A program made the position numbers and the translations under genes. Shown here in pieces: positions 1 to 37,532 of a stretch of 37,532 nucleotides of DNA; position 1 is the stretch's first letter, and every line of letters starts with the position of its first letter. A model generated the notes under the pieces. The model did no database searches. It was not told where the DNA came from and was given only the letters and a program-made list of their open reading frames with translations. Origin of the DNA: a virus; the IMG/VR virus record IMGVR_UViG_3300048121_000202, positions 1 through 37,532 of that record. One strand, given 5' to 3'.

Positions 1-945
1 TATTCTCATGCGTTCTGAGCCACCAGTCTTAAAAAATATAGGTGCAGCACCATTGGTGTTGGTATATGCGTCAATACCATCTCTACCATAATCTGTATAG
101 AAAAAGTCAGTAGTATCAAGAAAACGAACTTTAGATGAACTTGCGTCATTGATTTGCATTTTAGCAGTAGGACTACTCGTTCCAATTCCAACATTTCCTG
201 ACGAGTCTATTCTCATGCGTTCTGAACCATTGGTTCTTAAACCCATGTAATTACTTCCATGATGATACTGAATAAGACCTCTGTAGTTTTCTGCTCCAGT
301 TACTCCATCAGCAAAAGCTAAATAACCTATACCACTTGTTCCTGATAAAACCTGTATTTGACCATTTGTGCTAGAGCTTCCAACAACTAAATTTACACCA
401 GTATCAAAATTGTAGTCTGCTGGATTACTCATTCCAATTCCAACGTTGCCTGATGTGTCTATTCTCATGCGTTCTGCATCGTTGACTTCAAACGCCATAA
501 CTTGTGAGCTACCACTTGCTTTTATTTGTGTTTCCCCTGAAACAGCTAAAATTGCACCACCAAAAGTTCCTCCATATTCTAAATCTACTCTACCTTGATT
601 TGTTCCATTTACTGTTAATGTAGTTACATTACTGTAAGCATTTGGAGATGAAGTTCCAATTCCAACATTCTCACTACTATCAATTGTTATAGCTGTTGCA
701 CTAGCATTGTCATCAATACCTGTAGATGTAAAAGTCGTAAATGTTCCCGCAGCTGGGGTTGTGCCACCAATGACAGAACTATCAATTACTGCTCCGTCTA
801 GGTTTAATGCTACTGAAGTACCATTAGAGGCAAAGATTCCATCAAGAGTATCGAGGTCAGCGTTTAGCTTTGTTCCCCAAGTATCTGTAGATGCTCCTAC
901 TTCTGGTTTAGTTAAGTTTAAATTCGTTGTAAATGTATCTGCCAT
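1..945 (-). CDS. Tail fibre protein, N-terminal 315 codons only (partial copy)
   Basis: This is the first copy of the tail fibre gene, which is complete at 33136-34854. The window edge cuts it, so only the N-terminal 315 residues are here. They begin [17 protein letters not shown] and carry repeated '[19 protein letters not shown]'-type blocks. The C-terminal chaperone domain is missing only because the window starts here, so this is not a broken gene. See the entry at 33136 for function. Confidence 0.95.
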
Positions 946-958
946 AATTTATTCCTGT

Positions 959-1612
959 TTATGCTGCGATGTCAGTCCAATTAGTATTTGTTGAGGACTG
1001 ATCTGTCCAAGTTGTTGTAGCTGGTGATTGGTCTATGTAAATAGTATCTGCTACAGTCTGGTCTTCCCATTTTAAACTACCTATCGCAGAAAAACCACTT
1101 GTTTGTTGAATACTAGAAGTGCCAAACTGAATCAGTGAGCCAGTGACATCTAGGTTAGTTGTAGCGTTTATTTGACTTGCCGCTGATACGATAAAGACAC
1201 CAGTAGCAGTTACGTTTGTAGATGCGGTAATATTTGATTCACCAACATCAATTTGTGTGCCTACCGCACTAAGACTTGTTGATGCCGCCATAATAACGCC
1301 ACCAATATCAATCTGTGTACCTACAGCGGTTAGGTTAGATGTTGCTGATATGTTTGACGCACCAAACTTAACTATGACTGCATCTGATGTAAGACCAGAT
1401 GTTGCTGTTATAGATGATGCACCTTGTATTGGTACGAGTCCAACTGCTGTGACACTAGAAGAAGCAGTTATTAATGCTTCTCCAGTTACAGGTACAACAC
1501 CAACCGCAGTTAGGTTTGATGTTGCTGTGATTGAGCTTTCAGCTAATTCAAATTGTGGTGTTCCCCAGTAAGACTTACCGTATCCACCAAAACCATAGCC
1601 AACTGAAGCCAT
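959..1612 (-). CDS. Virion protein with eight 20-residue beta-rich repeats
   Basis: The protein is 217 residues long and belongs to no family I can name. A Gly/Tyr-rich start (residues 1-24) is followed by eight back-to-back repeats of exactly 20 residues (about 25-184). Their core reads 'SxITATSNLTAVG' followed by about seven variable residues ending in Gly. The C terminus is Thr/Asp/Trp-rich (WTDQSSTNTNWTDIAA). The fixed period and the alternation of small polar and hydrophobic residues suggest a beta-solenoid or stacked beta-arch fold. It lies between the Gp80-like gene and the tail fibre gene, so a tail-tip, fibre-attachment or head-decoration role is likely. No strong Shine-Dalgarno sequence precedes the ATG, which lies 4 nt after the upstream stop, so coupled translation is probable. 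The second copy is at 34868-35521. Confidence 0.85.
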   Translation of the reverse strand: MASVGYGFGGYGKSYWGTPQFELAESSITATSNLTAVGVVPVTGEALITASSSVTAVGLVPIQGASSITATSGLTSDAVIVKFGASNISATSNLTAVGTQIDIGGVIMAASTSLSAVGTQIDVGESNITASTNVTATGVFIVSAASQINATTNLDVTGSLIQFGTSSIQQTSGFSAIGSLKWEDQTVADTIYIDQSPATTTWTDQSSTNTNWTDIAA

Positions 1613-1616
1613 GTTA

Positions 1617-2000
1617 TTAAGCTACAGTTATGTCTATAGCACCTGCATTAAATCTAAATACATCTCCAGTAGAAACAGTTTTGCTTGTAGTTAAGTTACC
1701 ATAAGCAAGTAAGTTACCAGATGATAAAGCGTCAAAAACACCTACTGCAACAACAGTACCGTAATTAGCTGTAGCTGTTGGGTATTCTATAGCTGATGTG
1801 TTTGATGCTGTATCAGCAGTGACAGTAAAAGCTGCTGTTTTTCTTACATAGCCTCCGCCAGAAACTTCTGTTCCACCACCAGTATCAGATGGTGCTGATG
1901 TATATAATGCTACATATAATGTTGCTGGAGCTGTATAGGCTGATCCACCAAATACATGACCAACAACTTTGTTTTCTAAATAATCTGAAAATCCAGCCAT
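1617..2000 (-). CDS. Gp80-like phage structural protein
   Basis: This 127-residue protein begins MAGFSDYLENKVVGHVFGG and continues with 'YVALYTSAPSDTGGGTEVSGGGYVR'-like sequence (residues about 29-53). That layout is typical of a very common small phage virion family often annotated as 'phage tail fibre protein / Gp80'. It is rich in Thr, Ala and Gly and predicted all-beta, with no signal peptide or membrane segment. Its start is well supported by an AAGGAGA Shine-Dalgarno sequence. It sits directly downstream of the adaptor gene. The exact virion location is not known to me; head decoration and tail attachment are both possible. The second copy is at 35526-35909. Confidence 0.8.
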   Translation of the reverse strand: MAGFSDYLENKVVGHVFGGSAYTAPATLYVALYTSAPSDTGGGTEVSGGGYVRKTAAFTVTADTASNTSAIEYPTATANYGTVVAVGVFDALSSGNLLAYGNLTTSKTVSTGDVFRFNAGAIDITVA

Positions 2001-2014
2001 TCTATTCTCCTTTA

Positions 2015-2662
2015 TTAATTACCGTAGTAATAATTTCTTTTTTGTTTTTTTCCGTAAGTTCTTCTTCTCATCATTAAAGAACCTTTACCAAATGCAGCTT
2101 TCTCTTGTTCGAGTCTCATTTCTTCTAATGCTTTCTCAAACTGTTGAGTGAACATTGGTATTCTTTCATCTTCCATTAAGAAGATAGAAGCGTGTTTTAA
2201 TGCACCATATAAATAAACATCTGGGTGCGAGACTGATACAAAGTTACTTGTATTGGTATCACTTAATGCAGATATTTTAGCATAGTAAGTTAGCTGTAGG
2301 GTATATTCTCCATCAGGAGTTGGTGCTAATTCGATGGAGTCATCAACCATTGCAAAGTAAACTGGTTGACCTACAGAGTTGTTATTTGATTTTCTATAGA
2401 CATCTAATGACTCTATAGATTGTTGGAATAAAGGACTGAAATCGTTTGATGTAATTTCTACATTAATTGCCTCTATCCAATCTGTTGGAACTGTTAAATA
2501 TTGTGAGTCAGCTGTAGCAGTTGCTCTTTTAATCATGTCTTTGGTTCTTAACCTTCTGTTAAGTTCTGCTTCGACATTATCGATAAACGTATCTATATCA
2601 GACGTTAAATCTGATCTATTAAGATAATTTGCTATTGCTGTTTTTAATTCTGCATATGTCAT
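2015..2662 (-). CDS. Head-tail adaptor protein, SU10-adaptor-like
   Basis: The 215-residue protein opens MTYAELKTAIANYLNRSDLT and continues 'DIDTFIDNVEAELNRRLRTKDM'. This alpha-helical N terminus is characteristic of the phage adaptor family typified by phage SU10, which rings the portal and receives the tail nozzle. The C terminus is strongly basic (KGSLMMRRRTYGKKQKRNYYYGN, about residues 193-215), fitting a position near packaged DNA or the DNA channel. It overlaps the upstream gene by 4 nt (ATGA). The gene order capsid, small protein, adaptor supports the call. The second copy is at 35924-36571. Confidence 0.8.
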   Translation of the reverse strand: MTYAELKTAIANYLNRSDLTSDIDTFIDNVEAELNRRLRTKDMIKRATATADSQYLTVPTDWIEAINVEITSNDFSPLFQQSIESLDVYRKSNNNSVGQPVYFAMVDDSIELAPTPDGEYTLQLTYYAKISALSDTNTSNFVSVSHPDVYLYGALKHASIFLMEDERIPMFTQQFEKALEEMRLEQEKAAFGKGSLMMRRRTYGKKQKRNYYYGN

Positions 2663-2958
2663 ACTTTACCTTGCCAAGTTCTAAATACTTTATTATCTGG
2701 GTCGTTGAGCCATTGTTTCCATTTAGCTCTATCCTTTGACCAGCCTTCGCGTAATGCCTTTTGCCAAATCACCATAGGGACTTCAGCAATGTGTCGCATA
2801 TCTTTTCCAGGCTTAAGTGTATTGTCTCTTAGTTTCTTAACGTGGTCAATGACGGGAGCAACATCTTGAGTCGTATGATAAACCAGCTTGTCATCTTCGG
2901 TAATGAACTCTGATTTATAACCAGTTTTATGGTCTGTGATTGTACGTTTTGTTGCCAT
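2659..2958 (-). CDS. Small hypothetical protein between capsid and adaptor
   Basis: I do not recognise this 99-residue protein. It is charged, beginning MATKRTITDHKTGYKSEF, with a Trp-rich C-terminal half (IWQKALREGWSKDRAKWKQWLNDPDNKVFRTW) that looks helical. No Shine-Dalgarno sequence is visible before the ATG. Instead a GC-rich hairpin (2972-2991) lies 13 nt upstream, so its translation or transcription may be limited relative to capsid. It ends in an ATGA overlap with the adaptor gene, implying coupled expression. A minor head or connector protein is the simplest guess. The second copy is at 36568-36867. Confidence 0.75.
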   Translation of the reverse strand: MATKRTITDHKTGYKSEFITEDDKLVYHTTQDVAPVIDHVKKLRDNTLKPGKDMRHIAEVPMVIWQKALREGWSKDRAKWKQWLNDPDNKVFRTWQGKV

Positions 2959-2971
2959 GTTAAATAAGGGC

Positions 2972-2991
2972 GGGAGAGCCGAAGCTCTCCC
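2972..2991 (-). terminator. UUCG-tetraloop hairpin after the capsid gene
   Basis: In the minus-strand RNA an 8-bp perfect stem GGGAGAGC/GCUCUCCC closes on UUCG with a C-G closing pair, the classic extra-stable tetraloop. It fills the short gap between the capsid stop (3007) and the next start (2958). No uridine run follows directly (GCCCUUAUUUAAC), so it may be a partial terminator or an mRNA 3' stabiliser that sets high capsid expression. The identical second copy is at 36881-36900. Confidence 0.7.
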
Positions 2992-3006
2992 TGAATTCTA
3001 ACTAAC

Positions 3007-3948
3007 TTATGAAGTTGTTAAATCTGCGACTATACCGTGAGCAGCTTCGTTGCTCATTTCTAATCCATATTCTGTCACAATCATTTTAGTTTGTGCATCA
3101 CCTACAGTAGCGATATCAACTGTTTTAAAGTCTCTTAAGAAAGAAACTTTAGCATAGTCTGGATCAACTAATAATAGTGATCTTTCTCTACTGAAGTTAG
3201 ATGGAACGATTTTTAACTCACCAAAGTCTGAAGCATAAATAGAAACAGAAGCCTCTACTGTGTTTGCATCAACCATTTGTCTAGCTGAACTTCTACCTGT
3301 GAAACCAGATATTTTCTGCTTGTTTACAGGGCCACAGATTGCCATTGAAGGCTCTCCACCGTTTGTGAAACAAGATTGTAATACTGCTTTAAGTAAAGTT
3401 TCAGTTAAAGCTCTTTGAGTTCCGTCTGTTGGAGCTGTACCACCACCAGTAGGTGCGCCTGCTGCTGCTTTACTGTAATTGGATTTTATCCAAGACTCAA
3501 AGCCACCAGTTTTTCTAGCTGTTGTTGCGTTACCAGTTGTTTTACCACCATTTTGACAGAGAGCTGTTTCCATGTCTCTTTTCAATGCTTTAGCCATAAT
3601 AGCTAATTGATGAGCCATTTCTGACTTCTTACCAGCTGGGTCAGATGCTTGTTGAGAACCAGATACAGTTGCATCTCTTGAAGAGATCATTGCAACATTA
3701 CTAACTCTAGTTGTAGCAGTAGAAGCTGAAGTAGCTCCGTCTAATCTAAAGCCTTCTAGTTCACCAGCTGCATCAACAGTTGGTAGAGTTTCTGTTTGCC
3801 AATCGAAAACTACGTTCTTGATTGAATTTTTACCAATAGCACTCATAAATGGAGTAGCTTGTGGTGAGATGTTATAAATTACGTCACTCAGTTGTTCTCT
3901 ATCAGAAGTCGCTGAGTAAGTATCAAATGCGTTTGTTACTTTTGCCAT
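3007..3948 (-). CDS. Major capsid protein, SU10-type (DUF5309)
   Basis: The 313-residue protein has the layout of the SU10 major capsid family (DUF5309, HK97 fold). The N-terminal region reads 'SDVIYNISPQATPFMSAIGK' (about 21-40), with 'VFDWQTETL' after it. The central helix ('KSEMAHQLAIMAKALKRDME', about 109-128) is the expected spine helix. An Ala/Gly/Thr-rich insertion lies near 135-170, and the C-terminal beta domain follows. An AGGAATT Shine-Dalgarno sequence precedes the ATG. It follows the scaffold gene and is followed by a stable hairpin. It forms the icosahedral or prolate head shell. A 5'-truncated second copy runs into the window end. Confidence 0.9.
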   Translation of the reverse strand: MAKVTNAFDTYSATSDREQLSDVIYNISPQATPFMSAIGKNSIKNVVFDWQTETLPTVDAAGELEGFRLDGATSASTATTRVSNVAMISSRDATVSGSQQASDPAGKKSEMAHQLAIMAKALKRDMETALCQNGGKTTGNATTARKTGGFESWIKSNYSKAAAGAPTGGGTAPTDGTQRALTETLLKAVLQSCFTNGGEPSMAICGPVNKQKISGFTGRSSARQMVDANTVEASVSIYASDFGELKIVPSNFSRERSLLLVDPDYAKVSFLRDFKTVDIATVGDAQTKMIVTEYGLEMSNEAAHGIVADLTTS

Positions 3949-16996: not shown

Positions 16997-17127
16997 TACT
17001 TTTTCTTTTCGTCCTTCTTTTCAGTCTCTTTTTTGGTCTTTTTCTTACCAAATATCCTATCCCAATTATCCTCAAATACTTTTTTATCTACTTGTCTTGG
17101 TCGTTGGTCGCTTCCCTTTCCGTTCAT
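16996..17127 (-). CDS. Small Lys-rich conserved phage protein (43 residues)
   Basis: The 43-residue protein starts MNGKGSDQRPRQVDKKVFED, continues NWDRIFGKKK and ends in a Lys/Glu-rich tail. The 'GSxQRPRQVDxxxFExNWDxIFG' pattern is one I have seen in many phage genomes as a tiny unannotated gene; function is unknown. The start overlaps the methyltransferase stop by one base (TAATG), with GGAGAT as ribosome-binding site. The last base of the third 23-bp repeat coincides with the final base of its stop codon. Confidence 0.78.
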   Translation of the reverse strand: MNGKGSDQRPRQVDKKVFEDNWDRIFGKKKTKKETEKKDEKKK

Positions 17128-17978
17128 TATTTAATCTCCATGTTTTTTAATATGTGTGCAATTGTTTCTATAGTCCAACCATTACCCAACATTTTATATC
17201 GCTGCGTATTGCTTACATGGTTAGTATAATTATCTGGTACTGTTTGTAATCGTTCACACTCAACTGGGGTTAGTTTTCGCCATTTTGTTTCTTTAGTTTC
17301 TATAACACCATAAGGAACGCCTTTGTGCATATTTGCTGTTAAACACATACCCTTTTCGCTTTCATGTTTTATATAAATATCTTTTCTAGTTTTACCTCCA
17401 GACCACTTACTTGAACTTCTATTCATGTAATCAATAGCTTTATCTGATAAACCCTCTACTTCTTTTGTCTCTAATATATCCCTTAAAACTATACCTCTTT
17501 GTTCAGGCTGTTCTATTCCAGGTATGTTAGTCCAATAATATCTAACCCTATTCTGTGCTGATACCAACGCTGAATTAATCATTATTGGCTCGACACCCAT
17601 GTATTCAGATATAACATCTAAGTATTCTTTTTTCATTCTTACATTTTCTAATAAAAAATATTTAGGTTTAAGATGTTTTACAGCTCTCCAAAAACAAAAA
17701 AATAAAGCACTTCTTGGGTCATCAAACGCTAACTGTTTACCAGCAAAACTAAATCCTTGGCATGGACTACCACCCATAATTAAATCAATTTGCGGTAACT
17801 CATCATAGTTAATCTTTGTTACATCTCCAATTTGTATAATATCTGGATAATTAGCTTCACTAACTTTCATAGCATACTTATCTATTTCACTAGCGTAATA
17901 ATTATCTACTTTAATACCAAGACGATCTAAAGCGATACGCCCACAACTCATGCCATCAAATAGGCTTAATACATTCAT
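17127..17978 (-). CDS. DNA (cytosine-5) methyltransferase
   Basis: The 283-residue enzyme has all main C5-methyltransferase motifs. Motif I is 'LSLFDGMSCGRIAL' (4-17, AdoMet binding); motif IV 'GGSPCQGFSFAG' has the catalytic Cys73. Motif VI is 'ENVR' (111-114), motif VIII 'QNRVR' (142-146) and motif X 'GNGWT' (265-269). Residues about 150-240 form the short target-recognition domain. It transfers a methyl group to C5 of cytosine in a sequence not readable from the gene. No matching restriction endonuclease is adjacent, so it is an orphan enzyme, probably protecting phage DNA from host restriction or marking it for regulation. A strong GGAGAAAGGA leader supports the start. The neighbours are primase-helicase and the 43-residue gene. 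Confidence 0.93.
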   Translation of the reverse strand: MNVLSLFDGMSCGRIALDRLGIKVDNYYASEIDKYAMKVSEANYPDIIQIGDVTKINYDELPQIDLIMGGSPCQGFSFAGKQLAFDDPRSALFFCFWRAVKHLKPKYFLLENVRMKKEYLDVISEYMGVEPIMINSALVSAQNRVRYYWTNIPGIEQPEQRGIVLRDILETKEVEGLSDKAIDYMNRSSSKWSGGKTRKDIYIKHESEKGMCLTANMHKGVPYGVIETKETKWRKLTPVECERLQTVPDNYTNHVSNTQRYKMLGNGWTIETIAHILKNMEIK

Positions 17979-23471: not shown

Positions 23472-23747
23472 ATGAGTATAGATAATGTAACACCGCAAGA
23501 GTGGGATAGAGCTAGAATGAAAGCAACACAAAAACAAATTGGTGGAAGCCATTACAAAGATAAAGGTATTCAACCTTTAGAGTATGCGTATAGCAATGGA
23601 CTAACACCTAACTTAACCAATGTAGTTAAGTATGTAACCAGAGAAAAAGAAGATAGAGTGAAAGACTTACGAAAAGCTATTCACTATATAGAACTAGAAT
23701 TAGAAATGGTTTATGGCGTTGATCCAGAAGGTAATCCTTTAGATTAA
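23472..23747 (+). CDS. DUF3310 protein
   Basis: The 91-residue protein has the full DUF3310 signature: 'QIGGSHYKDKGIQPLEYAYS' (about 22-41), 'LTNVVKYVTREKEDRVKDLR' and 'KAIHYIELELEMV'. This small family is very common in phages, often called nucleotide-kinase-like, but its activity is not firmly established. It has a TTGGAGG ribosome-binding site and is the only plus-strand gene in this half of the genome. Its stop overlaps the convergent integrase stop by 4 nt, so neither gene has room for a terminator. Confidence 0.9.
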   Translation: MSIDNVTPQEWDRARMKATQKQIGGSHYKDKGIQPLEYAYSNGLTPNLTNVVKYVTREKEDRVKDLRKAIHYIELELEMVYGVDPEGNPLD

Positions 23748-24823
23748 TTAGACATCATTATCTTGGTCATATAGTCGCCTACGTTTTGCATTTCCTTGAT
23801 TGCTCTAGGCTCTCTTACTTTACGGTAACGTAAAACAGCAGACATACTTTTATGACCAGATAGTTTCATTAGTTCTGGTAGTTCCATAATCTCTCCAGCC
23901 ATAGTACAAAAGTTATGTCTTAGATCATGCAACCTTAGTTCTGGTCTACCAATCTTTTTAGCTAGTTGTTTCCACATCTTGACAGGGTAGTCTACATCTA
24001 AGATGTATTCTCCCTTTCTCTCTAGCTTATTAATAACCATCATAGCTTGATTGCTTAGATAGATAACTCTATCTTCATTAGTTTCATGGTCGGTCTTATG
24101 TTCGCTTAGAACTATCTTGTTATCTTTTAAATCAGACCACTTGGCACTGCCTATCTCACTCTTACATCTACCGCCTGAGTGCATACAAAGTTCTATGTAA
24201 TCCAAAGAGCTAACAAAGTTAGGTCGAACAGTTTGTCTCTTGATGTTTATTTGTCTTTGTAATTCAGCAAACTCTTTGTCTGATATTTCATTCTCACTAA
24301 TAAGTTCTTTGTTTAGTTTAATTTTACAAGGATTTATTTCTACCAGTGATAATGCTATCGCATGGTTATAACAACCAGATATCATCTGGACAACTCTGTT
24401 AGCAGCATAAGAACCTCTTTTAGATATTTCTAAATGTAATCTTGTAATATCACCCCTGTTTATATCTGTTAGAATTCTTTTACCTAAATCATTCTTAACA
24501 TCTTTATCCCACATTCTTACATACTCACCAGGCTTACCGTTCTTGTTAGGCATAGCAACTCTTCTTTTATTTTGTATTAACTTATCAATGTAATATTCAA
24601 ACGCTTGATTTAAAGTTTCCCCACCTCTGGTATTTAAAGGATCAATACCTTGTGCAACTTCACCAAGTATTTGTTGTGCTTTGTTTCTTGCTACATTGAT
24701 TGGTATGTCTCTAGTACCAAGAGTAAGTTCTCTCTTCCTTCCATTAATGCGATAGAAAACTCTATAAGTTTTTTCTGTGATTAATAAATTGTTTACCTTT
24801 GTATCTCTTTTATATCTAGCCAT
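23744..24823 (-). CDS. int: Tyrosine-recombinase integrase
   Basis: The protein is 359 residues from MARYKRDTKV. GGAGG seven bases upstream fixes this ATG; a TTG five codons earlier overlaps it. The N-terminal arm-binding domain (about 1-70, 'YRINGRKRELTLGTRDIPIN') and the core-binding SAM-like domain (about 70-175) precede the catalytic domain. Active residues are Arg219 ('GGRC'), Lys243 ('EHKTDH'), His299 and Arg302 ('HDLRH'), His324 ('SGHKS') and the nucleophile Tyr333 ('RYRK'). It integrates the phage at a site shared with a tRNA-Glu gene. It lies next to attP, so its promoter is separated from it by integration geometry only at the core. Confidence 0.95.
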   Translation of the reverse strand: MARYKRDTKVNNLLITEKTYRVFYRINGRKRELTLGTRDIPINVARNKAQQILGEVAQGIDPLNTRGGETLNQAFEYYIDKLIQNKRRVAMPNKNGKPGEYVRMWDKDVKNDLGKRILTDINRGDITRLHLEISKRGSYAANRVVQMISGCYNHAIALSLVEINPCKIKLNKELISENEISDKEFAELQRQINIKRQTVRPNFVSSLDYIELCMHSGGRCKSEIGSAKWSDLKDNKIVLSEHKTDHETNEDRVIYLSNQAMMVINKLERKGEYILDVDYPVKMWKQLAKKIGRPELRLHDLRHNFCTMAGEIMELPELMKLSGHKSMSAVLRYRKVREPRAIKEMQNVGDYMTKIMMSN

Positions 24824-24842
24824 AACTCGTACCTCCAAGCAG

Positions 24843-24874
24843 AGTCGCCATACAGTCGACCTTTAGTGTCGAAA
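24843..24874. promoter_or_regulatory. Left-arm integrase-binding motifs and int leader hairpin
   Basis: Three copies of a (A/T)GTCG(A/C)C-like motif lie at 24843-24850, 24854-24861 and 24867-24874. They sit 120-150 bp from the attP core, within an imperfect hairpin (24846-24879: CGCCAT/ATGGCG outer stem, TCGAC/GTCGA inner stem). Four related motifs lie on the other side of the core. Being in the int mRNA leader, the hairpin could also allow feedback on int expression. Confidence 0.55.
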
Positions 24875-24904
24875 TGGCGTGTATTTTAATTACCTATTCA
24901 GTAG

Positions 24905-24934
24905 ATTATAAATCGAATCTTGTAAAGAAAACAA
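24905..24934 (-). promoter_or_regulatory. Integrase promoter
   Basis: On the minus strand TTGTTT (24929-24934), an 18-bp spacer and a perfect TATAAT (24905-24910) lie about 80 bp upstream of the int ATG. A small dyad CTTGT/ACAAG (24919-24935) overlaps the -35 box and could be an operator. It lies between the attP core and int, so it stays with int after integration. Confidence 0.6.
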
Positions 24935-24991
24935 GGGTTTTTAGGGAAATAATGTACAGTCAAGAAATTGTGTGATGGATAAAATTTAAGA

Positions 24992-25029
24992 ATGAAAACC
25001 AGGTGTCCTAACCGATAGACGAAGGGGTC
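24992..25029 (-). other. attP: attP core: 5' half of a tRNA-Glu(UUC) gene
   Basis: Read on the minus strand, these 38 bases begin GACCCCTTCGTCTATCGG. They reproduce tRNA-Glu from acceptor base 1 through the D arm, the 5' anticodon strand (CCTGG) and the loop TTTTCAT with anticodon TTC. The tRNA match then stops at once: no 3' anticodon strand, T arm or acceptor 3' strand follows. A tRNA fragment beside an integrase gene is the usual signature of an attachment core. It starts 12 nt after the stop of the nuclease gene on the same strand. Confidence 0.85.
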
Positions 25030-25041
25030 AAAGACTAGAAA

Positions 25042-25515
25042 TCAGCCATTTATTGCAGCTTTTTTAGTACCAGAAGTCGACTCATTTTTGCCTTGTCGAC
25101 CATCAGTCGCCAAAATAATCGACTCCATAGCTTCTTTTAAACTTTCAACAGAATTGATTGATTTCATAATTTCGTCCTTTATCGTGATTTGTGTTGTTTT
25201 ACAATCAGAAAAGGCTTTGAAGCATACAGTCTGGTATTCAAGATTAACCATTGCGATTATATCTATTTGATCTTTTTTATAATGTCTTCCTGTAGTGGTA
25301 ATGCCTTTGCGTAAATCAAATCGCCAGTTCTTATATTTAGATTCTATATGTGTAACTGTTTTAACTTGGCATCTATAGAGTTTGTGTTCCCACTCAAAGA
25401 TTACATCAGCATGGGATGTATGAGGCATTATTGTAACGGTGTCTGATTCTCTCGCCAGTACTGAGCAGGTTAAGTATTCTCCACTCCTACCTATTCGCTC
25501 CGATCTGCGTGTCAT
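25042..25515 (-). CDS. PD-(D/E)XK nuclease-like protein next to attP
   Basis: The 157-residue protein resembles the PDDEXK endonuclease family that includes archaeal-resolvase-like proteins. 'RIGRSGEYLTCSVL' supplies Glu13, 'HTSHADVIFEW' supplies Asp37, and 'KLYRCQVKTV' supplies Gln50 and Lys52. A 'YKKDQIDIIAMVNLE' strand-helix follows. The last 25 residues are Ser/Thr/Lys-rich and probably disordered. It starts 11 nt after the 925-residue gene's stop without a Shine-Dalgarno sequence. It ends 12 nt before the tRNA-Glu half, and its 3' coding region contains four integrase-arm-like motifs. Possible roles are recombination, degradation of rival DNA, or a lysogen-expressed defence gene. Confidence 0.75.
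   Translation of the reverse strand: MTRRSERIGRSGEYLTCSVLARESDTVTIMPHTSHADVIFEWEHKLYRCQVKTVTHIESKYKNWRFDLRKGITTTGRHYKKDQIDIIAMVNLEYQTVCFKAFSDCKTTQITIKDEIMKSINSVESLKEAMESIILATDGRQGKNESTSGTKKAAING
25075..25124. promoter_or_regulatory. Right-arm integrase-binding motifs
   Basis: Four copies of the motif seen left of the core occur here: AGTCGACT (25075-25082), TGTCGACC (25094-25101), AGTCGCCA (25105-25112) and AATCGACT (25117-25124). They are 45-95 bp from the attP core and lie within the end of the nuclease gene. One exact 8-mer (AGTCGCCA) is shared with the left arm (24843-24850). Confidence 0.5.
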
Positions 25516-25526
25516 GGTATGTCATG

Positions 25527-28304
25527 TTAGTTAGAAGAATCATCGTTATCTAAAATTTCTGGCATATTATTTAATATGTATGCTCTTGCAGCTATTTGAT
25601 TTTGTTTAGTATCAGCCTTTAACATAAGAAGGGCAAACTCTGGATCAAGCATTGCTTTAGTAAGTAATTTCTCTCCCACCTCTTCAGCAGTTCCACCTCT
25701 TATCATATCGCCAAGCCATGAACTAACTGCAAAAACACCCCTGCCTTTAACAATACCATAAACAGAGGCTAAAACTGTTTTAACTCTTTTTGAATCTTGT
25801 TGTAGTGGATTAGTGCTACTTCCAGATGTTGTTTGTATATTTATCCTATCTAGTTCTGTAACTCTTTGTCTTACTCTATTTAAAGCATCCATTTCGGTTT
25901 TATTAAATATACCTTTTAAAACATTCTGCATTTTTGGCTCTGTTAGTAACTTGTTTAGTTTTGCTAAAGAGGCAACATTAATTTCATCACCAGTAGAAGT
26001 TACTCCTTTTGTGTTTACAAGTCTGCTATAAATTTCATCTCTAATACCAGCTTTAAGGCCAAGTTTTGCTTCTGGATTATTACCAATAATATTTTTTAAT
26101 TTAGCAAGTTCTACTGTTGGGTTTTCGCTTGATAATATTTTTCTTATCGCATCTTCTGGTTGTAAATCTGTAAAGTATTTGAATGCAGATTTGTTTGCAT
26201 CAGATTGTGTTTGTTTTAAATTATTTTTTGCATTTACAACAGCTTTAGCAAAACCAGTTGTTTTATCCGCCTGTCCTTTGAGTGTAGTTCTTAGACCAAC
26301 AATCTCAGATTTTAATCCTGGAAACTGATCTAATATTGAGTCATATCTTTTCAAAAACTCATATATTTGTTTAGGAGCTACTTCACCCTTACCTTTAAAT
26401 GCTCTTTGTGCTAATTCACCAATCATAAATTCTCTAACTTGAGCTTCCATTATTTCAGGGTTTGGTGCATCGTTAATAATCTGTCTAAGTTGTGTAGCAC
26501 CCTCTGTAGGCCCTAATAAAAATTTTTGTGCTGTTTGTGTTTGTAGATTTTTATTACTAACGGTATCATCCGCCCATTTACCACCAAGTCCATCTTTAAA
26601 TTTAGGTGCATAAACATTCTTATAAAAATCATTAGCTTTAACAGCTGCTTCAGCTGCATCAGATGGAATACTTGTAAAACCTTCAGGAACTATATTTTGT
26701 CCTTGATTAAAACTTGCTAAGTTTTCTGTATATTTATCAATAGTTCCTCTAATTTTTTCTAAACTTTTTGCAGCTACTGGTGAGTCGTTTTTGTATGCTT
26801 GGTTAATCGCATCATTAACACTTGCTCTTAAATCTATTAATTCTTTGTAAGAGCTTTTATTACCTTTTGCTTGTGCTTCTATAGCATTGTCTATAGCTTT
26901 AAAAACGCTTCCACCAAATGTTTGTACAGCTTCTGCTTCTGCTGTTTTTAATGGTGCTGTTGGCTTTCTTATAAAGTCAGCTGCTTTTTTTAATAAAGTT
27001 AAATCAACTAGTAATGTACCCTCTGGATCAATAGCATCATATAAATCTTTTTTCTGTTTATTTAAAACAAGCAACTCATTTTGTAGTTGATTATCTAAAG
27101 TTATAGATGCAGACTCTTGACTAGACCTAGTTGTATTGTTGTATTTTGCAATTTGTGAATCTAGCTCCTTTTGTGCTGCTTCATAGTTTTGTTCAGATTT
27201 TAAAACATTTGATTCAGCACTTCTTATATTTGTTTCTCTTATATCCTTAACAGCAGAAGCTGTATCTGCGATGTTACCAGTAGATGAACTTATATTTTTT
27301 GTTTCATCCCCTAAAGCACCTACATTTTTTATCATTCTTTGAACCATTTCTGGTCTACTTGATATAGCTCTTTCTGAAGCTATACCCATTATATCTCCAC
27401 TAGAAACACCTGTGGTTGGGTTGTAACCAGGTATATCAGCTCTGTTTACAACATTTTCAAGCTCAGTTGCTGATTTCTGAGGATCAAAAAATATGTTTCC
27501 AGGCTCTTGAAAGACCTCTGGTAATTCTTTTTCTATATTTTTCTGTGTTGGTAATTTTGAACCAATATATCTAAAAGGCGATAATACAGTATCAACTGCT
27601 GGGCCAATGCCTAAAACTTCTCCACCAACTTTTAGTCTTTGTGTTGCTGGGTCATCTGTTGGCTGTATTGCTGTAGGGCCTCCCAAAAGGTTTCCAAGAG
27701 AAGATGTTTCGCCTGGAACTGAAACAGCAACATCTGAAGCTGCTGATCCTAACAAACCAGAGACATAATTTACTACTTTAGGAGCATTAGCAAACTGTGA
27801 TGCTTTAAATGCAGCCATTCCAGGAACTGCATATTGTGCTATAGAACCAGCAGTATCTGTTCCTGGTAAACCGCCTTGTATTTTTGGAATTGTTTTTCTT
27901 ACAGACTCTGCTATGTTTGCTGAACCTTCTGAACCAGGTAATCCTGTTTTAGCATATAAGTCAAAAGGCAAAGAACCAACACCTCTTAAAACATTACTTG
28001 CTGCTTTAAAGGCTGTTTGTTCTAAAGGGCCGCTTGTTAAAGGATTGTAACCAAGATTAACAATATTTTGTCCCTGGTCATTTTTTTGTATGTTTTGTAT
28101 TCCTAGAGTTGCTAACGCAGTATCTTTAAAATTAGCTTTCTTTTCAATTTCGGGTTTAGGCTCAGGTATTAACTTTAAAGATTTTTTTTCATCTACAAGT
28201 ATTTTAATTTTTTGCAAGTTTTCTTCAGACGGGTTTCCATCGCCATATAAAAGAACAATAGCTTCATCAATTTTATCTATTTTTGCTTGATTGGCGTTTG
28301 CCAT
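25527..28304 (-). CDS. Large internal virion / DNA-ejection protein
   Basis: The 925-residue protein is the largest in the genome. The N terminus is helical and charged (1-60). Residues about 95-260 are Gly/Ala/Pro-rich with weak hydrophobic stretches ('GSIAQYAVPGMAAFKASQFA', 'VVNYVSGLLGSAASDVAVSV'). Residues about 340-900 are long Lys/Glu/Gln/Asn-rich helices. This resembles the ejection proteins that podoviruses inject to build a channel across the envelope. I see no lytic transglycosylase motif. It is the last of three consecutive internal-protein candidates downstream of the nozzle. No family name could be assigned. Confidence 0.75.
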   Translation of the reverse strand: MANANQAKIDKIDEAIVLLYGDGNPSEENLQKIKILVDEKKSLKLIPEPKPEIEKKANFKDTALATLGIQNIQKNDQGQNIVNLGYNPLTSGPLEQTAFKAASNVLRGVGSLPFDLYAKTGLPGSEGSANIAESVRKTIPKIQGGLPGTDTAGSIAQYAVPGMAAFKASQFANAPKVVNYVSGLLGSAASDVAVSVPGETSSLGNLLGGPTAIQPTDDPATQRLKVGGEVLGIGPAVDTVLSPFRYIGSKLPTQKNIEKELPEVFQEPGNIFFDPQKSATELENVVNRADIPGYNPTTGVSSGDIMGIASERAISSRPEMVQRMIKNVGALGDETKNISSSTGNIADTASAVKDIRETNIRSAESNVLKSEQNYEAAQKELDSQIAKYNNTTRSSQESASITLDNQLQNELLVLNKQKKDLYDAIDPEGTLLVDLTLLKKAADFIRKPTAPLKTAEAEAVQTFGGSVFKAIDNAIEAQAKGNKSSYKELIDLRASVNDAINQAYKNDSPVAAKSLEKIRGTIDKYTENLASFNQGQNIVPEGFTSIPSDAAEAAVKANDFYKNVYAPKFKDGLGGKWADDTVSNKNLQTQTAQKFLLGPTEGATQLRQIINDAPNPEIMEAQVREFMIGELAQRAFKGKGEVAPKQIYEFLKRYDSILDQFPGLKSEIVGLRTTLKGQADKTTGFAKAVVNAKNNLKQTQSDANKSAFKYFTDLQPEDAIRKILSSENPTVELAKLKNIIGNNPEAKLGLKAGIRDEIYSRLVNTKGVTSTGDEINVASLAKLNKLLTEPKMQNVLKGIFNKTEMDALNRVRQRVTELDRINIQTTSGSSTNPLQQDSKRVKTVLASVYGIVKGRGVFAVSSWLGDMIRGGTAEEVGEKLLTKAMLDPEFALLMLKADTKQNQIAARAYILNNMPEILDNDDSSN

Positions 28305-33135: not shown

Positions 33136-34854
33136 TTATTCTCCTTTAAGTAAGTTAACTTCAGACTGTAAGGCTTCAATCTGTGTTTGTTGTTCTTGTA
33201 TAGCTTTGATGCAAAGAGAAACCATGTGTGGATATCTTAAAGCATCAGGTTCGTTATCATCATTATATTCAACAAATTCTGTTAAACCTGCTTCATGCAC
33301 CTCTTCAGCTATTAATCCATAAAAAACTGTATCGCCATCATTGTTGCCTTTATATGTAACAGGTCTTAAATTATTTAATTCTGTTAAGCCTTTAGAAGCA
33401 TCTGTAATAGTGTTTTTATATCTTTCTGATGATGTTGACCTTACAATATTTCCATTACTTAAAACTCTTACGTTGGCTGCATCACTGCTTGTAGTGTTGT
33501 AAACACCATCTGCACTTATTACACCCCCTGATGATAACCTCATGCGTTGTGCATCGCCTGAATAAAAAATTAAATCATTGCTTTGAGCTCCTGTACCCAC
33601 AGTTCCACTTGTCCCACTGTCTGCAAATGTAATTATTGAATAAGCATCTCCACTTTCAAATTTAGCAGGAACATTTCCTGTGCCTGAATGGACGTGTAAT
33701 TTTTCTGAAGGACTAGTCGTTCCAATTCCCACATTACCTGATGAGTCTATTCTCATGCGTTCTGAGCCACCAGTATGCAGAGACATAACATTAGAACCCT
33801 GCATAACAATACCCGTATCAGCATCACCATTAGCTAGATATTGACTAGCATATAATGTACCCATATTTGAAAAGTCTTGACCTTGAAATTCTAACGCACC
33901 TGTTGCTGCTATTCTCATGCGTTCTGAGCCACCAGTCTTAAAAAATATAGGTGCAGCACCATTGGTGTTGGTATATGCGTCAATACCATCTCTACCATAA
34001 TCTGTATAGAAAAAGTCAGTAGTATCAAGAAAACGAACTTTAGATGAACTTGCGTCATTGATTTGCATTTTAGCAGTAGGACTACTCGTTCCAATTCCAA
34101 CATTTCCTGACGAGTCTATTCTCATGCGTTCTGAACCATTGGTTCTTAAACCCATGTAATTACTTCCATGATGATACTGAATAAGACCTCTGTAGTTTTC
34201 TGCTCCAGTTACTCCATCAGCAAAAGCTAAATAACCTATACCACTTGTTCCTGATAAAACCTGTATTTGACCATTTGTGCTAGAGCTTCCAACAACTAAA
34301 TTTACACCAGTATCAAAATTGTAGTCTGCTGGATTACTCATTCCAATTCCAACGTTGCCTGATGTGTCTATTCTCATGCGTTCTGCATCGTTGACTTCAA
34401 ACGCCATAACTTGTGAGCTACCACTTGCTTTTATTTGTGTTTCCCCTGAAACAGCTAAAATTGCACCACCAAAAGTTCCTCCATATTCTAAATCTACTCT
34501 ACCTTGATTTGTTCCATTTACTGTTAATGTAGTTACATTACTGTAAGCATTTGGAGATGAAGTTCCAATTCCAACATTCTCACTACTATCAATTGTTATA
34601 GCTGTTGCACTAGCATTGTCATCAATACCTGTAGATGTAAAAGTCGTAAATGTTCCCGCAGCTGGGGTTGTGCCACCAATGACAGAACTATCAATTACTG
34701 CTCCGTCTAGGTTTAATGCTACTGAAGTACCATTAGAGGCAAAGATTCCATCAAGAGTATCGAGGTCAGCGTTTAGCTTTGTTCCCCAAGTATCTGTAGA
34801 TGCTCCTACTTCTGGTTTAGTTAAGTTTAAATTCGTTGTAAATGTATCTGCCAT
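33136..34854 (-). CDS. Tail fibre with S74 intramolecular chaperone, complete copy
   Basis: The 572-residue protein has an N terminus ([20 protein letters not shown], then '[18 protein letters not shown]') typical of phage tail-fibre attachment domains. The long middle carries several '[19 protein letters not shown]' blocks, a motif of trimeric beta-helical shafts. The last 97 residues form a Peptidase_S74 chaperone. Ser476 and Lys480 in 'SSERYKNTI' are the expected self-cleavage dyad, followed by '[13 protein letters not shown]' and a C-terminal coiled coil ('[20 protein letters not shown]'). The chaperone trimerises the fibre and is then cut off before Ser476. The protein likely binds the host surface. 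A 5' partial copy occurs at 1-945. Confidence 0.92.
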
Positions 34855-34867
34855 AATTTATTCCTGT

Positions 34868-35521
34868 TTATGCTGCGATGTCAGTCCAATTAGTATTTGT
34901 TGAGGACTGATCTGTCCAAGTTGTTGTAGCTGGTGATTGGTCTATGTAAATAGTATCTGCTACAGTCTGGTCTTCCCATTTTAAACTACCTATCGCAGAA
35001 AAACCACTTGTTTGTTGAATACTAGAAGTGCCAAACTGAATCAGTGAGCCAGTGACATCTAGGTTAGTTGTAGCGTTTATTTGACTTGCCGCTGATACGA
35101 TAAAGACACCAGTAGCAGTTACGTTTGTAGATGCGGTAATATTTGATTCACCAACATCAATTTGTGTGCCTACCGCACTAAGACTTGTTGATGCCGCCAT
35201 AATAACGCCACCAATATCAATCTGTGTACCTACAGCGGTTAGGTTAGATGTTGCTGATATGTTTGACGCACCAAACTTAACTATGACTGCATCTGATGTA
35301 AGACCAGATGTTGCTGTTATAGATGATGCACCTTGTATTGGTACGAGTCCAACTGCTGTGACACTAGAAGAAGCAGTTATTAATGCTTCTCCAGTTACAG
35401 GTACAACACCAACCGCAGTTAGGTTTGATGTTGCTGTGATTGAGCTTTCAGCTAATTCAAATTGTGGTGTTCCCCAGTAAGACTTACCGTATCCACCAAA
35501 ACCATAGCCAACTGAAGCCAT
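34868..35521 (-). CDS. Eight-repeat virion protein (second copy of 959-1612)
   Basis: This is the same 217-residue gene as at 959-1612, seen again because the window exceeds one genome length. Here its downstream neighbour, the complete tail fibre gene, is visible, starting 13 nt after the stop. It has eight 20-residue repeats and no known family. Confidence 0.85.
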   Translation of the reverse strand: MASVGYGFGGYGKSYWGTPQFELAESSITATSNLTAVGVVPVTGEALITASSSVTAVGLVPIQGASSITATSGLTSDAVIVKFGASNISATSNLTAVGTQIDIGGVIMAASTSLSAVGTQIDVGESNITASTNVTATGVFIVSAASQINATTNLDVTGSLIQFGTSSIQQTSGFSAIGSLKWEDQTVADTIYIDQSPATTTWTDQSSTNTNWTDIAA

Positions 35522-35525
35522 GTTA

Positions 35526-35909
35526 TTAAGCTACAGTTATGTCTATAGCACCTGCATTAAATCTAAATACATCTCCAGTAGAAACAGTTTTGCTTGTAGT
35601 TAAGTTACCATAAGCAAGTAAGTTACCAGATGATAAAGCGTCAAAAACACCTACTGCAACAACAGTACCGTAATTAGCTGTAGCTGTTGGGTATTCTATA
35701 GCTGATGTGTTTGATGCTGTATCAGCAGTGACAGTAAAAGCTGCTGTTTTTCTTACATAGCCTCCGCCAGAAACTTCTGTTCCACCACCAGTATCAGATG
35801 GTGCTGATGTATATAATGCTACATATAATGTTGCTGGAGCTGTATAGGCTGATCCACCAAATACATGACCAACAACTTTGTTTTCTAAATAATCTGAAAA
35901 TCCAGCCAT
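35526..35909 (-). CDS. Gp80-like structural protein (second copy of 1617-2000)
   Basis: This is identical to the gene at 1617-2000, including its AAGGAGA ribosome-binding site. It is the same locus read twice rather than a gene duplication. Confidence 0.8.
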   Translation of the reverse strand: MAGFSDYLENKVVGHVFGGSAYTAPATLYVALYTSAPSDTGGGTEVSGGGYVRKTAAFTVTADTASNTSAIEYPTATANYGTVVAVGVFDALSSGNLLAYGNLTTSKTVSTGDVFRFNAGAIDITVA

Positions 35910-35923
35910 TCTATTCTCCTTTA

Positions 35924-36571
35924 TTAATTACCGTAGTAATAATTTCTTTTTTGTTTTTTTCCGTAAGTTCTTCTTCTCATCATTAAAGAACCTTTACCAA
36001 ATGCAGCTTTCTCTTGTTCGAGTCTCATTTCTTCTAATGCTTTCTCAAACTGTTGAGTGAACATTGGTATTCTTTCATCTTCCATTAAGAAGATAGAAGC
36101 GTGTTTTAATGCACCATATAAATAAACATCTGGGTGCGAGACTGATACAAAGTTACTTGTATTGGTATCACTTAATGCAGATATTTTAGCATAGTAAGTT
36201 AGCTGTAGGGTATATTCTCCATCAGGAGTTGGTGCTAATTCGATGGAGTCATCAACCATTGCAAAGTAAACTGGTTGACCTACAGAGTTGTTATTTGATT
36301 TTCTATAGACATCTAATGACTCTATAGATTGTTGGAATAAAGGACTGAAATCGTTTGATGTAATTTCTACATTAATTGCCTCTATCCAATCTGTTGGAAC
36401 TGTTAAATATTGTGAGTCAGCTGTAGCAGTTGCTCTTTTAATCATGTCTTTGGTTCTTAACCTTCTGTTAAGTTCTGCTTCGACATTATCGATAAACGTA
36501 TCTATATCAGACGTTAAATCTGATCTATTAAGATAATTTGCTATTGCTGTTTTTAATTCTGCATATGTCAT
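35924..36571 (-). CDS. Head-tail adaptor (second copy of 2015-2662)
   Basis: This is identical to the gene at 2015-2662, with the same ATGA overlap with the upstream 99-residue gene. It is the same locus read twice. Confidence 0.8.
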   Translation of the reverse strand: MTYAELKTAIANYLNRSDLTSDIDTFIDNVEAELNRRLRTKDMIKRATATADSQYLTVPTDWIEAINVEITSNDFSPLFQQSIESLDVYRKSNNNSVGQPVYFAMVDDSIELAPTPDGEYTLQLTYYAKISALSDTNTSNFVSVSHPDVYLYGALKHASIFLMEDERIPMFTQQFEKALEEMRLEQEKAAFGKGSLMMRRRTYGKKQKRNYYYGN

Positions 36572-36867
36572 ACTTTACCTTGCCAAGTTCTAAATACTTT
36601 ATTATCTGGGTCGTTGAGCCATTGTTTCCATTTAGCTCTATCCTTTGACCAGCCTTCGCGTAATGCCTTTTGCCAAATCACCATAGGGACTTCAGCAATG
36701 TGTCGCATATCTTTTCCAGGCTTAAGTGTATTGTCTCTTAGTTTCTTAACGTGGTCAATGACGGGAGCAACATCTTGAGTCGTATGATAAACCAGCTTGT
36801 CATCTTCGGTAATGAACTCTGATTTATAACCAGTTTTATGGTCTGTGATTGTACGTTTTGTTGCCAT
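36568..36867 (-). CDS. 99-residue hypothetical protein (second copy of 2659-2958)
   Basis: This is identical to the gene at 2659-2958. The UUCG hairpin preceding it recurs at 36881-36900. It is the same locus read twice. Confidence 0.75.
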   Translation of the reverse strand: MATKRTITDHKTGYKSEFITEDDKLVYHTTQDVAPVIDHVKKLRDNTLKPGKDMRHIAEVPMVIWQKALREGWSKDRAKWKQWLNDPDNKVFRTWQGKV

Positions 36868-36880
36868 GTTAAATAAGGGC

Positions 36881-36900
36881 GGGAGAGCCGAAGCTCTCCC
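36881..36900 (-). terminator. Post-capsid UUCG hairpin (second copy of 2972-2991)
   Basis: This is identical to the hairpin at 2972-2991: an 8-bp stem with a UUCG loop in the minus-strand RNA. Confidence 0.7.
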
Positions 36901-36915
36901 TGAATTCTAACTAAC

Positions 36916-37532
36916 TTATGAAGTTGTTAAATCTGCGACTATACCGTGAGCAGCTTCGTTGCTCATTTCTAATCCATATTCTGTCACAATCATTTTAGTT
37001 TGTGCATCACCTACAGTAGCGATATCAACTGTTTTAAAGTCTCTTAAGAAAGAAACTTTAGCATAGTCTGGATCAACTAATAATAGTGATCTTTCTCTAC
37101 TGAAGTTAGATGGAACGATTTTTAACTCACCAAAGTCTGAAGCATAAATAGAAACAGAAGCCTCTACTGTGTTTGCATCAACCATTTGTCTAGCTGAACT
37201 TCTACCTGTGAAACCAGATATTTTCTGCTTGTTTACAGGGCCACAGATTGCCATTGAAGGCTCTCCACCGTTTGTGAAACAAGATTGTAATACTGCTTTA
37301 AGTAAAGTTTCAGTTAAAGCTCTTTGAGTTCCGTCTGTTGGAGCTGTACCACCACCAGTAGGTGCGCCTGCTGCTGCTTTACTGTAATTGGATTTTATCC
37401 AAGACTCAAAGCCACCAGTTTTTCTAGCTGTTGTTGCGTTACCAGTTGTTTTACCACCATTTTGACAGAGAGCTGTTTCCATGTCTCTTTTCAATGCTTT
37501 AGCCATAATAGCTAATTGATGAGCCATTTCTG
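36916..37532 (-). CDS. Major capsid protein, C-terminal part (partial copy)
   Basis: This is the second copy of the capsid gene (complete at 3007-3948), cut by the window end. Residues from about 110 to 313 are present; the start would lie 325 nt beyond the window. It is not a broken gene. Confidence 0.95.
   Translation of the reverse strand, partial: EMAHQLAIMAKALKRDMETALCQNGGKTTGNATTARKTGGFESWIKSNYSKAAAGAPTGGGTAPTDGTQRALTETLLKAVLQSCFTNGGEPSMAICGPVNKQKISGFTGRSSARQMVDANTVEASVSIYASDFGELKIVPSNFSRERSLLLVDPDYAKVSFLRDFKTVDIATVGDAQTKMIVTEYGLEMSNEAAHGIVADLTTS

Follow-up and report, generated by a model that had tools for sequence, protein, structure and literature searches.

The tRNA fragment beside the integrase gene of this phage raises the question of what becomes of a host tRNA gene, and of its transcription, if the incoming DNA supplies the 5' half of that gene. 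Integration into tRNA genes is usually thought to be harmless, since the host promoter goes on driving the restored tRNA. The window (the whole 37,532-nt stretch analysed here, record IMGVR_UViG_3300048121_000202) is phage DNA and carries an exact 3,623-bp repeat at its ends (1-3623 identical to 33910-37532), indicating that the record is one circular map of 33,909 bp read past its start. Portal, terminase, holin and phage-stabilisation-type genes are present, with relatives among podoviruses; for the cultured relative HTVC106P (portal 34%) no integrase appears in the annotation. A C5-cytosine DNA methyltransferase gene (PF00145, E = 3.5e-49) lies at 17127-17978. A tRNA search found no complete tRNA gene in the window, and no CI-type repressor was recognised among the ORFs searched. 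Taken as a whole, the phage is probably a temperate-type podovirus of SAR11.

The fragment occupies 24992..25029 on the minus strand (25029-24992, GACCCCTTCGTCTATCGGTTAGGACACCTGGTTTTCAT) and corresponds to bases 1-38 of tRNA-Glu(UUC), not 39-75. Among 84,980 species genomes the exact 38-mer is found in three only (L040, L041 and L042), two assemblies titled uncultured Alphaproteobacteria and one Pelagibacteraceae bin, all of SAR11 type, and in each it starts an intact, normal tRNA-Glu(TTC) gene; with 38/38 identity to these genes the fragment constitutes the attP/attB common core. A chance match was rejected, given 38 exact bases and only three host species. Identity runs no further than base 38, where the anticodon loop ends. 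When 110 family genomes were surveyed with 3 mismatches allowed, the tRNA-Glu gene was found once each in 81 and never twice, and the exact 38-mer was again limited to the same three genomes, other copies differing mainly in the anticodon stem. The confinement of the exact match to three hosts indicates that the phage fits one narrow host group, and the phage CCTGG pairs with the CCAGG of that group. The same 38-mer is present in 24 IMG/VR contigs, every time between phage flanks. The identity to three SAR11-type genes bears out the earlier note, which had read the 38 nt near int as tRNA-Glu(UUC) bases ending in the anticodon loop, had looked to bacterial tRNA-Glu genes for a match to 24992-25029, and had pointed out that the phage supplies the 5' half, a departure from the usual, though not obligatory, 3'-half polarity in which the host promoter stays with the tRNA.

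Read along the minus strand, a large gene (25527-28304) is followed by a small PD-(D/E)XK-like gene (25042..25515), a gap of 12 nt, the tRNA piece, about 170 nt and int, an order that agrees with the 12-nt gap and common strand described before. The int gene (23744..24838, minus; frame bounds 23744-24823/24838, ATG at 24823) encodes a tyrosine integrase with an arm-binding domain (PHROG 1, E = 1.9e-37; Pfam PF00589 and PF13356), in which the catalytic R/K/HxxR/H/Y residues were identified by inspection of an alignment. The core 38-mer lies 168 nt from the int ATG, placing the attP core outside int. For the upstream gene, 'nuclease' is a weak assignment (PF11645; PDDEXK_5, E = 0.00096, below Pfam's cut-off; PHROG 5018), the fold model of its product, at pLDDT 54, is too poor to use, and the protein gave no PDB or PADLOC match. 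Homologues lie upstream of attP in most relatives, with distant ones in the tRNA-Lys phages described below; in L021 and L151 there was no match to the protein.

The anatomy of this region is that of a lambda-like attP in a tRNA gene: a block of identity to a host tRNA gene lies beside int, arm-type repeats are present on both sides of the core, and the integrase carries an arm-binding domain. The anticodon loop, TTTTCAT (24992..24998, minus), where identity ends exactly, is the inferred 7-bp overlap within which strand cleavage would occur. The fragment of the tRNA-Pro relatives likewise ends after CCTGG plus 7 nt, and the 3'-type fragments of the tRNA-Lys phages start exactly at the anticodon loop. 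Immediately before the overlap, CCTGG (24999..25003, minus), on the 5' strand of the anticodon stem, is a candidate core-type integrase site with the host CCAGG as its partner; the same motif precedes the overlap in the tRNA-Glu type, in the anticodon type and in most tRNA-Pro D-arm types, variants of the last having TCTGG or CTTGG in its place. A conserved element, GGCTGATTTCT(A/G)G (25035..25047, minus), lies 49 bp from the overlap, shares bases with the nuclease stop codon and is common to Glu, Pro and Lys phages. GGCTGATTTCTGG is separated from the inferred overlap by 48-49 bp in Glu5 attP and in several of the Pro5 attP, by 60 in the Pro anticodon type and by 37 in Lys3. The Glu and several Pro attP share the 48-49-bp spacing even though their tRNA pieces upstream of the core are of lengths 11 nt apart, and in a further group of Pro phages a weaker motif, defined differently, stands at 44-45 from the overlap. 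These steps approximate one helical turn, which we interpret as fitting a protein-bridged attP. Candidate arm sites, recognised as repeats by sequence only, were located on the P side (GGCGACT..GGTCGACA..GTCGACT, 25076..25111, minus) and on the P' side (GGTCGACTGTATGGCGACT, 24843..24861, minus), and relatives have their own, lineage-specific repeats flanking the core at about -100/-88 and +137/+149.

Joining phage and host in silico at the 38-mer restores the tRNA at one junction. For all three hosts, ARAGORN identified a full tRNA-Glu in attB and in the predicted nuclease-side junction (CTTTGACCCC..TTTTCAT joined to CCAGGAAAG), and no tRNA in attP or in the predicted int-side junction (host tRNA 5' half joined to TCTTAAAT). 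Restoration at a single junction is again as expected of a lambda-like attP and agrees with the earlier proposal that the intact tRNA would be composed of phage 5' half and host 3' half and lie beside the nuclease gene.

The sequence preceding the two halves differs between phage and host. All distinct host upstreams, 22 for Glu and 19 for Pro, have a TATA-like -10 box whose end lies 7-15 nt upstream of base 1, and the resulting 41 of 41 compares with 1 of 30 distinct phage upstreams (L262 only), a count that is descriptive, the criterion having been chosen after viewing the host sequences and many of the phage upstreams being closely related. The window's own tRNA half lacks a host-type -10 box upstream, and consequently the restored single-copy tRNA would have to be transcribed from further inside the prophage; under this model transcription would have to start further upstream, either within the nuclease gene, the likely source of read-through, or ahead of it. 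Consensus and weight-matrix promoter searches upstream of the tRNA half returned nothing above shuffled sequence, and host tRNA promoters score no better, so that the method could not have shown a promoter; these scans, in which AT-rich phage, host and shuffled sequence score alike, were set aside as uninformative, and the -10 box at the host position was used as the criterion instead. No convincing promoter was found upstream of the tRNA half, and a viable lysogen is therefore not made plausible at the level of transcription.

At the other end, the truncated half would face int. A putative int promoter, TTGTTT-N18-TATAAT (24905..24934, minus), matches the consensus only, although much of its sequence is retained in diverged relatives; a terminator search of the stretch from the core to int found none. 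In a lysogen, int may thus be readable from the host tRNA promoter as well as from a site of its own, and need not depend on the former. These findings bear unevenly on the transcriptional part of the earlier note, according to which the restored tRNA loses its promoter and needs prophage transcription, the host promoter reads into int, and lysogen viability, nuclease expression and int expression become linked. The loss of the promoter is consistent with the absent -10 box, while a substitute promoter gained no support; the geometry does point the host promoter at int, which also has a promoter-like site of its own; and the proposed linkage gained no support from the data, int being possibly independent.

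Relatives of the integrase indicate that this polarity is not peculiar to one phage. Two integrase scans of viral contigs gave about 115 loci, many of them from the same contigs, and relatives with a recognisable site, down to about 39% integrase identity, have a 5' tRNA fragment: tRNA-Glu 1-38, tRNA-Pro 1-27 (or 1-28) or tRNA-Pro 1-39. Where the integrase is about 45-65% identical to that of the window, the fragment is tRNA-Glu 1-38 in the window type (L055/L106, 65%) and tRNA-Pro 1-27/28 at many other loci, and in these relatives it is always about 175-200 bp before int and on the int strand. The integrases of L262 and L263 (39% identical) accompany tRNA-Pro 1-39, which stops at the end of the anticodon loop. 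At the same place and on the same strand, loci with integrases about 33% identical (L169-L182, without L180) have tRNA-Lys bases 32-76, an ordinary 3' half; no tRNA piece was found in L180. By sequence comparison, the 5' polarity is thus a clade-wide trait with a 3'-type tRNA-Lys outgroup. An exact-match survey missed or shortened the tRNA-Pro pieces of L122-L126, L142, L154 and L167, which have the same piece with a base difference, and phages and hosts alike are polymorphic (C or T) at tRNA-Pro position 16. If tRNA-Pro is the target of the 1-27 type, exchange would take place before base 28, in or near the D arm.

Several further observations were made on these loci. In many SAR11 genomes about 8.3 kb separates the tRNA-Glu and tRNA-Pro targets, which share a strand (e.g. 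G001:C7:47467 and 55729). L010 (5820-7092) encodes an integrase identical to that of the window at 362/364 positions beside the tRNA-Pro attP of L019/L020, which could mean that one integrase has two targets, that the locus is recombinant or that the assembly is chimeric; as a single metagenome contig that may be chimeric, it was set aside as proof that one integrase uses two tRNAs. Between attP and int of L262 (7657-7995, minus), and also in L263, a small cysteine-rich ORF (CIGVCSTS..CKGCGRT) overlaps the int start and presumably resembles DUF1289.

The pattern of conservation suggests that the tRNA part of attP is functional. The 31 distinct Pro attP compared were picked by a pattern with variation at two positions only, which would overlook strongly altered copies. 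Their mean column majority is 0.99 for tRNA-Pro bases 1-27 but 0.74 over the preceding 30 nt and 0.73 over the following 33 nt, and 25 of the 27 columns are invariant as against 5 and 3 in the neighbouring stretches. Conservation starts sharply at base 1 after unrelated leaders, and this start is not a product of row selection. The 16 distinct window-type attP have 0 variable sites in the 38 bases and 31 in 230 flanking positions, the zero being built in by collection of the contigs with the exact 38-mer.

The explanation that best accounts for these data, and one that we consider probable, is an integrase-driven recombination with the single host tRNA-Glu(UUC) gene in which the phage 5' half restores the tRNA at the nuclease side. 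The lambda-like tyrosine integrase would exchange strands in the anticodon loop, leaving an intact tRNA of phage 5' half and host 3' half at the nuclease-gene end of the prophage and a truncated 5' half, facing int, with the host promoter. The restored tRNA would then form the 3' portion of a prophage transcript that passes through the nuclease gene, the precursor being trimmed by RNase P and other RNases, and the viability of the lysogen would hang on constitutive prophage transcription at the nuclease-side end. A variant in which the host tRNA promoter gives way to a dedicated one, situated within the nuclease gene or just ahead of it, so that viability is uncoupled from other prophage expression, appears rather unlikely, though not negligible: promoter-like pairs do occur in the 600 nt upstream, but their scores do not exceed those of shuffled sequence and there is no host-type -10 box beside the tRNA half in the window type.

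The earlier note had also proposed a search for prophages with the predicted junctions: none was found by int in 162 Pelagibacterales genomes or, by junction, in IMG/VR. Integrase matches in the 110 family and 162 order genomes reach 23-34% identity only, no prophage was found by int in genome contigs, and IMG/VR yielded no integration junction for the Glu core and none for tRNA-Pro past base 27; L264 and L265, in IMG/VR, continue as tRNA-Pro past base 27 on contigs of 177 and 104 kb. This raises the possibility that integration takes place during infection while stable lysogens are rare, or not viable without an adequate tRNA promoter, the phage being lytic in practice. The missing lysogens and adjacent promoter would fit such a life, as would the T7-like cyanophages, which integrate into tRNA-Leu without stable lysogens (PMC8776855). 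It is nevertheless improbable: integration would require the overlap and core sites but no faithful copy of tRNA bases 1-15 or 1-26, and the exact retention of these bases across diverged lineages suggests that cells whose tRNA has been restored do have progeny. The absence of lysogens is weak evidence because single-cell and bin genomes are often incomplete and prophage contigs are easily lost. Far less credible still is that attP is a relic, with lysogeny being lost and the tRNA fragment drifting. L013 and L017 have indeed lost the attP core, together with the left arm between nuclease gene and int, and the integrase frame of L017 is broken, possibly a step to lytic life; yet most integrases are intact and tRNA-Pro 1-27 is nearly invariant across diverged lineages beside its variable flanks.

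Restoration of a host tRNA from an incoming 5' half has precedents. Reversed polarity is known but rare, being described for the archaeal pTN3 (PMC5495485), with similar bacterial cases seldom met (PMC8371274); the situation of the window is that of these bacterial cases, but here it is usual throughout an entire integrase clade. The attP of the pTN3-like integrases of Thermococcales is the 5' part of tRNA-Leu, 41 bp in length (PMC5495485; PMC8371274), and as in the window the restored tRNA is parted from its original promoter. In pTN3, however, int contains attP and is split by integration, and the rebuilt tRNA ends up behind the int promoter, whereas in the window, a bacterial phage with a different tRNA target, int stays whole and the restored tRNA would lie at the opposite end, behind the nuclease gene. 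The Pelagiphage HTVC019P-like phages and T7-like cyanophages are likewise marine podoviruses that encode a tyrosine integrase and have a tRNA-derived attP, but differ in phage type and in tRNA (tRNA-Leu, 39-46 bp; PMC3861242, PMC8776855). Fionnbharth-type actinobacteriophages also target a single-copy essential tRNA gene and make the lysogen dependent on the phage for the tRNA; there the tRNA is not rebuilt but replaced by a complete phage tRNA gene with its own promoter (PMC10865867), whereas the window, with a 38-bp core in place of a short core and a complete same-isotype tRNA gene, would rebuild the tRNA and lose only the promoter. In ICEKp1 and relatives the host tRNA promoter similarly points into int after integration, and int was shown to be readable from it, but the polarity is ordinary and the tRNA keeps its promoter (PMC13023037). 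Relative to the known 5'-half attP, the new features here are the occurrence in bacterial phages, an int intact at the other end, two tRNA targets and a 3'-type outgroup.

It is possible, though we hold it only tentatively and as somewhat doubtful, that 5'-half restoration is the rule of the clade, that the only tRNA-Glu or tRNA-Pro of a lysogen is the tail of a prophage transcript, and that exchange for tRNA-Pro 1-27 takes place in or near the D arm. If so, a tRNA made as such a tail would represent host dependence on a prophage through promoter capture, and a D-arm exchange would be a sublocation outside the three listed for bacteria in PMC8371274. In summary, the restored tRNA would be a single-copy essential gene moved under prophage control, and this reading predicts the prophage end at which a lysogen has to keep transcription going. 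It thereby offers a handle on lysogeny in SAR11, where no such prophage was found among the 162 Pelagibacterales genomes, and the related 3'-type and 5'-type integrases provide a natural comparison of how attP polarity flips.
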